Source: Candidatus Roseilinea mizusawaensis
GTDB lineage: Bacteria > Chloroflexota > Anaerolineae > J036 > Brachytrichaceae
DNA: 64,000 bases
Assembly (NCBI GenBank): GCA_016841965.1
Contig: JAEANN010000030.1
Coordinates: 1-64,000 of the forward strand
Direction of reading: 5' to 3'
The notes beneath the pieces are model-generated. The model worked only from the letters and a program-made list of their open reading frames with translations. It was not told where the DNA came from and ran no database searches. Made by a program: the position numbers and the translations under genes. Positions 48,239 to 54,168 of the stretch are shown here, piece after piece (the stretch's first letter is position 1; the number at the start of each line of letters is the position of its first letter).

Positions 48239-48266
48239 TTGCGTCGGCGCAGAAATATGCTAAAAT
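48239..48266 (+). promoter_or_regulatory. Promoter of the candidate small RNA
   Basis: TTGCGT (48239-48244) and TAAAAT (48261-48266) are 16 bp apart, with a TGC just before the -10 box (extended -10). The predicted start, near 48273-48274, is exactly where the 9-bp closing stem of the RNA begins. Confidence 0.6.
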
Positions 48267-48273
48267 GCGGCAT

Positions 48274-48364
48274 GGGAGTTGGGTTTGGTTCACTGCTCCC
48301 CGTAGGAGTGTCCCTCCCCCCAGCACTCTTACACAGTGACCGTGTGTCCAACTCCCTCTTTTTT
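48274..48364 (+). ncRNA. Candidate structured small RNA with C-rich loop, family unknown
   Basis: GGGAGTTGG (48274-48282) is the perfect complement of CCAACTCCC (48348-48356), which is followed by TCTTTTTT. Inside it, GGTTCACTG (48287-48295) pairs with CAGTGACC (48334-48341) with one bulge, and TAGGAGTG (48303-48310) pairs with CACTCTTA (48324-48331, one G-U). The result is a rod-shaped RNA of about 91 nt whose apical loop is UCCCUCCCCCCAG. It has its own promoter and ends at a T tract. It does not show the conserved loops of 4.5S, 6S or any riboswitch I know. The C-rich loop could pair with Shine-Dalgarno sequences. Confidence 0.6.
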
Positions 48365-48453: not shown

Positions 48454-48482
48454 TTGATATTGCCTCACCCTCTTCCTAGAAT
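48454..48482 (+). promoter_or_regulatory. Promoter of the secreted-protein gene
   Basis: TTGATA (48454-48459), a 17-bp spacer and TAGAAT (48477-48482) give a good SigA match. Transcription from about 48489 yields a 5' leader of some 230 nt before the ATG at 48719. Confidence 0.65.
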
Positions 48483-52321: not shown

Positions 52322-53188
52322 TCACTCCTGGGACGTTTTCGGATCGAGCAAGGCGCGCAGGTTTTCGCCCAGCGCGTCGAAGCTCTTGACCATCACCAAC
52401 AGCGACAGCCCGGGCAGAGCCGCCAGCCACCAGTAGCCGGTTGACAGATGGCGCATAGACTCAGAGAGGATGATGCCAACCGCCGGTTGATGTGGCGATA
52501 GGCCGATGCCGATGAAAGTAATGCCTGCTTCGTGCAGAATGGCGTGCGGGAAAAGCAAGAGTAGCCCAACTACAAACTGCGGGATGAGATGCGGCAGCAG
52601 GTGATGACGAGCGATCCATATCCGTGAGCGTCCCAAGCGCTCTGAGAGCTGGACGTAGTTGGCAGTCTTGAGTTGTAGCACTTCGGCGCGAATCAGCCGG
52701 GCCAGCCCGGTCCAGTGAGTCAATGCCACCGAAGCGATCACGCCGGTTAGGCCGCCGCCAAACACAAAAGCGATCAGGATCAGCGCCACCAGGTGCGGCA
52801 AGCTTAGGAACATGTCAATCACCCAGGTGATGACTGTATCTACCCAGCCGCCGAGTGTGGCCGAGGCCAGACCGATCAACAAGCCGATGCAGGCGCTCAA
52901 CGCGCTGGCAATCACCCCCACCGCCAGGCTAATGGTCAAGCCGCGCAGGGTGCGTGTCAGCATGTCGCGGCCCAGCCAGTCGGTGCCAAAGGGGTGCTGC
53001 CAGGTAGGGGCTTGATTGCGGGCTTGCAGGTTGGTGTCTAGGCCGGCCGGGTCAAGCCTCTGTCCGAGGACAACGATCAGGGCCAGAAAACTGAGGCTTA
53101 GCCCGATAGCCCACAAGGTTTGCCGTCGCCGATTGCTGAAAGGAGTTGCCAGGCGATGGACAGGAGCCGGCAGGCTCATGTCGCTCAT
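52322..53188 (-). CDS. Peptide/nickel ABC importer permease (DppC/NikC-like)
   Basis: The 288-residue permease has the HPFGTDWLGRDMLTR motif of DppC-type subunits (about 66-80), six hydrophobic helices and the inner-membrane transport loop LSERLGRSRIWIARHHLLPHL (key residues EAA-type loop about 182-200). It forms the membrane channel with the next gene upstream, with which it overlaps by 4 bp. Confidence 0.92.
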   Translation of the reverse strand: MSDMSLPAPVHRLATPFSNRRRQTLWAIGLSLSFLALIVVLGQRLDPAGLDTNLQARNQAPTWQHPFGTDWLGRDMLTRTLRGLTISLAVGVIASALSACIGLLIGLASATLGGWVDTVITWVIDMFLSLPHLVALILIAFVFGGGLTGVIASVALTHWTGLARLIRAEVLQLKTANYVQLSERLGRSRIWIARHHLLPHLIPQFVVGLLLLFPHAILHEAGITFIGIGLSPHQPAVGIILSESMRHLSTGYWWLAALPGLSLLVMVKSFDALGENLRALLDPKTSQE

Positions 53189-54168
53189 GCGCCACCTCCC
53201 AGACGAATGCGCGGGTCGATCACGTGGTAGATCAGGTCTGCCAGGGCATTGCCGGTGAAGACGAATATCGCGCTGAACAACACGATGCCCATCAGCAGCG
53301 GCACATCGCCGCGCAGGCCGGCCTGCACGGTGGCCTGCCCCAGGCCAGGGTAGGTGAACACCTGTTCGGCCAGCACCGATCCGCCAAACAACTCGCTGAG
53401 CGACGCAAACTGCAGCGTGATAGCCGGCAGCGCAATGTTGCGCAGGCCGTGTTGCCAGATCAGTCCCCAGCGCTTCTCGCCCTGCGCGGTGGCGAAAAGG
53501 GCGTAATCGCTGTGCAATGCGGCGATGAGCTTTTGGCGCGTGTGCAAGGCGATGTTGGCAACGCCGATGATGCTGAGGGTTGCAGCCGGCAGCATCAGAT
53601 GATGGATGCGCTGGAGCAGGGTGGCTTCTTCGGGCAGCACACCCGGCGGCGCAGCGCAGCAGATCGGCGTCCAGCGCAATGTCACTGAGAAGACGATCAA
53701 CAGCAACAACGCTAACCAGAAAGTCGGCGTGGCAGCCAGTGTGTAGGCGAACCAGCGCACCACGCGATCGAGAGGCGACCCTTCATTGCCGCCCGCCAGC
53801 ACGCCAAGCGTGAAGCCCAGCACGCCCGATAACACCCAGGCAGCGCTCATCAGCGCCAACGAGGCTGTAAATCGCTGCCCTATGACGGTTATCACCGGTT
53901 GACGGTAGATGCTTGACGTGCCCAGGTCGCCCTGCAACGCTTGCCCCATCCAGCGCAAGTAGCGCTGGACGGGTGGGTCGTTCAGCCCCCAACGTTCGGC
54001 GATCTGCGCGCGCTGTTCTGGGCTGACGCGCAGCATATCCGCGCCGATATACGCATTGACAGGGTCGATCGGCGACAGGCTGACCAGAGCAAAGGCAGCC
54101 ATTGACAATGCAATGAGCAACACGGCCAGCCGCGCCAGCTTTTTGACCACGAACAAGAGGAGTTTCAT
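53185..54168 (-). CDS. Peptide/nickel ABC importer permease (DppB/NikB-like)
   Basis: The 327-residue permease has the DppB N-terminus (ALVSLSPIDPVNAYIG), GQALQGDLGTSSIYRQPV (about 77-94), six hydrophobic helices and the cytoplasmic coupling loop YALFATAQGEKRWGLIWQHGL near 225. ATG 54168 lies 13 bp after the substrate-binding protein's stop; the upstream frame to 54264 would overlap that gene. Confidence 0.92.
   Translation of the reverse strand: MKLLLFVVKKLARLAVLLIALSMAAFALVSLSPIDPVNAYIGADMLRVSPEQRAQIAERWGLNDPPVQRYLRWMGQALQGDLGTSSIYRQPVITVIGQRFTASLALMSAAWVLSGVLGFTLGVLAGGNEGSPLDRVVRWFAYTLAATPTFWLALLLLIVFSVTLRWTPICCAAPPGVLPEEATLLQRIHHLMLPAATLSIIGVANIALHTRQKLIAALHSDYALFATAQGEKRWGLIWQHGLRNIALPAITLQFASLSELFGGSVLAEQVFTYPGLGQATVQAGLRGDVPLLMGIVLFSAIFVFTGNALADLIYHVIDPRIRLGGGA

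Follow-up and report, generated by a model that had tools for sequence, protein, structure and literature searches.

Among the closest described systems to the locus considered here are small RNAs with C-rich sequences. The 6C (B11) RNA of Mycobacterium is reported to interact with the mRNAs of panD and dnaB, and there is no evidence that a chaperone takes part (PMC8628891; PMC4046766). IsrR of Staphylococcus lowers translation through the pairing of its exposed C-rich regions with Shine-Dalgarno regions (PMC9410917), the unpaired regions of rhizobial AbcR RNAs contain CU-rich anti-Shine-Dalgarno motifs (PMC7143759), and the cuckoo or CcsR RNAs of alphaproteobacteria are multi-copy (PMC10253847). 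For Chloroflexota, our literature search on regulation by small RNAs found almost nothing.

The window analyzed here is the whole 64,000-nucleotide stretch of Candidatus Roseilinea mizusawaensis DNA, and we refer to the genome from which it comes as G000. The initial annotation had claimed a new small RNA with a promoter, a rod-shaped fold, a C-rich loop and a terminator, and this claim is supported by the fold, by a homologue in a second genome of the same genus (G001, with the record set 'uncultured Anaerolineae bacterium isolate N1_Bin_METABAT__149_1') and by a paralogue, such that four copies can be compared between two species of one Anaerolineae genus. We refer to the inferred transcript in the window (~91 nt, 48274-48364, + strand) as RNA A and to the paralogue as RNA B or copy B, and we consider it very probable that the two are a real, selected small RNA family. 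As read from the sequences, the family is new but belongs to a functional kind already known, the C-rich-loop small RNAs, and it is restricted to one lineage. In common with trans-acting members of that kind, RNA A has a putative promoter and a predicted intrinsic terminator of its own, together with a conserved C-rich stretch, CCUCCCCCC, which is found in 4/4 copies, is predicted to be unpaired and is complementary to Shine-Dalgarno sequences.

There are clear differences from each of the described systems. RNA A resembles 6C (RF01066) in that the latter is also a short small RNA (~93-100 nt) whose hairpin loops contain runs of C, but 6C forms two stem-loops with C-rich loops in both, whereas RNA A is a single rod whose one C-rich loop is apical. 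IsrR, grouped here with FsrA of Bacillus and RNAs of the RoxS/RsaE type, is similar in its C-rich pairing regions, and the position of copy B beside ferrous-iron genes is an echo of the iron-sparing role of IsrR. However, IsrR has three stem-loops, a separate terminator, several C-rich regions and Fur control, and no sequence relation to RNA A or B was found. AbcR (alpha-r15) is an Hfq-binding RNA with three stem loops, while RNA A and B are single rods and no Hfq was found over the cut-off. CcsR is cut from the ccaF1 precursor, in contrast to the copies of RNA A and B, each of which has its own promoter. Finally, 6S RNA (RF00013) is also a long rod-like hairpin, but it is ~180 nt in length with a central bubble, whereas RNA A, at ~91 nt, has no bubble and its conserved part is the apical C-rich loop.

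Setting and fold of RNA A

Upstream of the RNA A unit is the stop codon of an aminotransferase gene of class I/II (Pfam PF00155), and downstream of the unit is a long gene for a secreted protein, itself large and without a Pfam match. The promoter (48239-48266, + strand) consists of the -35 sequence TTGCGT (48239-48244), which starts 1 base past the aminotransferase stop codon, a 16-nt spacer and the extended -10 element TGC-TAAAAT (TAAAAT, 48261-48266). The initial annotation had termed this a good promoter. That is justified for the -10 region, which is a proper extended element with the form TGn-TANANT in 4/4 copies, but not for the -35 sequence, which is poor with 3/6 consensus matches, and for this reason a simple promoter scan omits it.

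The minimum-energy fold of 48274-48364 (+) is a single rod of -38.3 kcal/mol (z -5.2), a value reached by none of 200 shuffled sequences (-22.8 +/- 3.0). It contains three nested helices as originally described, although their lengths are 10, 9 and 10 bp and not 9, 8 and 8. Specifically, the basal helix of 10 bp pairs GGGAGUUGGG (48274-48283) with UCCAACUCCC (48347-48356), the latter also forming the terminator stem; the middle helix of 9 bp pairs UGGU-CACUG (48286-48295), in which 48290 is a one-base bulge, with CAGUGACCG (48334-48342); and the apical helix of 10 bp pairs GUAGGAGUGU (48302-48311) with 48323-48332. The apical loop of 11 nt, CCCUCCCCCCA (48312-48322), is unpaired with a probability of at least 0.97, and the loop is exposed in 4/4 copies. 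Within it, further Cs extend the anti-Shine-Dalgarno core CCUCC, and this core is both invariant and unpaired, in keeping with the complementarity to Shine-Dalgarno sites that had been pointed out. The T tract noted after the basal stem is likewise present (TTTTTT, 48359-48364). It should be noted that the C-rich word of the loop (48312-48322) recurs as CUCCCU at the end of the 3' arm (48347-48356), so that the 5' GGGAG (48274-48283) could pair with either, although the ensemble strongly prefers the basal stem. When rod-plus-T-tract structures in the window were counted against shuffles there was no discrimination, and, judged by the comparisons that follow, it is conservation and not the single-sequence fold that puts RNA A above chance.

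Conservation of two copies in two species

In G001 the RNA A unit is found between the orthologous genes. The RNA together with its promoter is 85% identical over 126 bp, the RNA body 90.5% and the loop 100%, compared with 80% at the end of the upstream coding sequence; in the intergenic DNA downstream of the unit, identity is 68% at first and 52% beyond. The homologue has the promoter TTGCGT-16-TACAAT and the T tract TTTTTT. Nine differences separate the aligned RNAs, of which five are at counted paired positions, and all five retain a standard pair. The wobble changes in the basal helix leave all of its pairs intact. Three of the five changes lead to G-U pairs in the homologue, and because a G-U pair on the + strand would be an A-C mismatch on the opposite strand, the + strand is the one that specifies the functional RNA.

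A DNA search located the paralogue in G000 at C48:76474-76566 (minus strand), and it follows the same plan with a TTGACG-16-TACACT promoter, a GGGAG...CUCCC base, the CCUCCCCCC loop and a T tract of TTTTTTT. A covariance model built from three sequences (RNA A, its G001 homologue and G000 copy B) then matched a fourth copy outside its training set, at C97:8188-8282 in G001 (64.4 bits, E 4.8e-14), which has the same TTGACG-16-TACACT promoter and a weaker T tract, TTTCTT. Over the four copies, 94.6% of cells are paired versus 38-55% when the arms are slid, none of 500 shuffles reaches the observed covariation score, and the loop core CCUCCCCCC is invariant at 9/9 bases. Six pairs show double-sided changes, divided equally between the middle and apical helices. 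The initial annotation had staked its claim on covariation of the helices, and two of them prove to be compensatory while the third, the basal helix, shows consistent changes. With four sequences, many of the changes reflect the one split between A and B, so that the independent events are few; the pair-keeping changes in the homologue of RNA A are, on our reading of the alignment, a separate support beside the A/B covariation.

The surroundings of copy B differ between the species. In G001 it is flanked by an MFS transporter gene on one side and by feoA-feoB on the other, ~25 nt before feoA (profile matches FeoB_N, E 7e-50, and FeoA, E 6e-21). In G000 these neighbors are decayed: feoA has a frameshift, only the last 38 codons of feoB are left, and ~40 codons remain of the MFS gene. 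The feoAB and MFS genes are thus decayed in G000:C48 (L129:6600-7330, minus strand) and intact in G001:C97 (L130:6930-10471). Despite this, G000 copy B retains its promoter, fold, loop and terminator, and its persistence beside ruined genes argues for selection on the RNA itself.

As far as the searches extend, the family is, by sequence criteria, lineage-restricted. Among 396 genomes of the class, an improved covariance model matched only G000 and G001, with two loci each, although the many-genome model search used strict filters that divergent members could escape. The covariance search proposed at the outset yielded a paralogue locus in both genomes, but not a family widespread in Chloroflexota. 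In the third genome of the genus, an assembly that is 87% complete, a different gene comes after the aminotransferase orthologue and there is no RNA. An exact architecture pattern run against ~85,000 species (GTDB contigs) returned 62 stretches, among which the true members were the two G001 loci only, and a plasmid search gave no match. Several candidates were rejected. The loop pattern matched 31 of 199 class genomes, none beyond G000 having the stem and terminator among the loci fetched; weak matches in the class (G130, G062) fold differently; those in Pseudoflavonifractor (22.7 bits) and Gemmatimonadota (20.4 bits), both from a pattern-selected set, were without a matching apical hairpin or repeat-like; and of three pattern matches in viral contigs the covariance model recovered none. 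An interspersed palindromic repeat with CTCCCTCCCCCGAACACGAG...TCGGGGGAGGGA (L030, L031) occurs in ~9 and 21 copies in G163 and G180, respectively; it is REP-like, belongs to another genus of the class and is unrelated to RNA A or B.

The view that the RNA belongs to no known family stands for all four copies. Rfam 15 gave no match at gathering score for RNA A or the other three, and the best relaxed match for RNA A was mir-637 at 16.4 bits against a cut-off of 71. The 6C model (RF01066) matched neither the window nor the three remaining copies, and it found nothing in G000 and 39 relatives (40 genomes). The 6S model (RF00013) had no match at the RNA A locus (cmscan) or in G000, while control genomes matched; 6S RNA in G000 may be absent or too divergent for RF00013.

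Alternative roles for the two RNAs

We propose, with a probability of roughly 0.6, that RNA A and B represent a stand-alone small RNA gene present as two paralogues, whose C-rich loop would pair with Shine-Dalgarno sites. Since RNA A comes directly after a stop codon and ends in a T tract, it could be no more than an intrinsic terminator of elaborate form that serves the aminotransferase gene and does nothing as an RNA. However, neither the conservation of the promoter nor the invariance of the 9-nt loop would be required of a simple terminator, and copy B follows the same plan between the MFS gene and feoA in G001 and outlasts the decay of both neighbors in G000, which makes this reading improbable. 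It is less probable still that the elements are cis-acting, riboswitch-like leaders, B of feoAB and A of the secreted-protein gene. The short distance from RNA B to feoA in G001 would fit such a role; however, the loss of feoAB in G000 while RNA B persists indicates that RNA B is not their leader, and RNA A is not the leader of the secreted-protein gene because that gene has a separate promoter of its own, TTGATA-17-TAGAAT (48454-48482, + strand; 10/12 matches), which is kept in G001 with 25/29 bases identical versus 52% across the remaining intergenic region. Moreover, the terminator is inside the element, no competing structure was seen, and the A and B loci adjoin unrelated genes.

Two further readings have very little in their favor. 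A short peptide, (V/M)-(S/F)-L-P-P-(A/T), could start from the GTG or ATG in the apical stem, and on inspection the frame is open for a few codons in 4/4 copies, but the start would be buried in a stem of 10 bp and no ribosome-binding site would be free, the residues simply follow from the invariant loop DNA, and a longer frame of 72 aa has an in-frame TGA in G001, where the internal ATG is absent; we regard a coding function as highly improbable. Hardly credible at all is a mobile element with short terminal inverted repeats (MITE), as might be suggested by two copies per genome with inverted ends, given that the copies occupy two fixed orthologous loci in two species with no others found, that changes retain RNA pairs including G-U, and that promoter and terminator travel with the repeat. 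More weight, though still well short of favoring it, is due to a trans-acting RNA whose loop binds a protein or acts as a sponge for another RNA rather than recognizing Shine-Dalgarno sites. An exposed, invariant loop suits any single-strand ligand, and the target search described below gave two conserved pairs versus one for the control, but precedent points to G-rich initiation regions and no C-rich-binding bacterial protein is indicated. Pairing of the RNA A loop with Shine-Dalgarno sites is plausible and is, from the sequence features, the best mechanism.

Proposed Shine-Dalgarno pairing and its significance

In the mechanism that we propose, RNA polymerase would start near 48274 and the rod would shield the resulting RNA, while the 11-nt C-rich loop would pair with G-rich Shine-Dalgarno regions of target mRNAs, excluding the ribosome and so lowering translation. 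The RNA A hairpin may also terminate read-through from the upstream aminotransferase gene. Hfq (PF17209) had no match in G000 or G001 and none over the cut-off in 21 genomes, while controls matched, and hence the pairing is probably Hfq-free, as reported for mycobacterial 6C.

Candidate targets were sought as GGGGGAGG or GGGGAGG ahead of ATG in both genomes, and a G-rich site is shared by both species at two genes. The first, a Proton_antipo_M gene (PF00361; C8:60791 in G000), is for a proton-antiporter/complex-I-type subunit, and its site GGGGGAGGG, which overlaps the end of the gene before it, would form 9-10 bp with the loop. The other is an ABC permease gene (BPD_transp_2; C27:70670 in G000) with GGGGAGG (7 bp). 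The predicted duplexes between the RNA A loop and these targets are of -20.8 to -23.9 kcal/mol, versus -12 to -14 for the generic 16S 3' tail. The predicted Shine-Dalgarno pairing thus gains two conserved candidate sites, but the control pattern GGAGGGG also gives one conserved pair, and for that reason the candidate targets are leads and the mechanism is one that we infer. Within the window, an ABC transporter permease gene (52322-53188, minus strand) has GGGAGG before its ATG (window position 53200), which would give 6 bp with the loop, and is a possible local target.

More tentatively, and as a possibility that we would not yet favor, RNA A and B may be the first recognized duplicated, Hfq-independent family of small RNAs in Chloroflexota that mimic the anti-Shine-Dalgarno sequence, in which one terminator rod with a fixed CCUCCCCCC loop would tune energy and transport genes, and copy B, once tied to ferrous-iron uptake, would have outlived the loss of the transporter. 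The essence of our findings is that a two-copy family with one invariant loop offers concrete, testable riboregulators in a lineage without a recognizable Hfq, and it would add a further phylum in which C-rich loops were apparently adopted independently to read Shine-Dalgarno sites.
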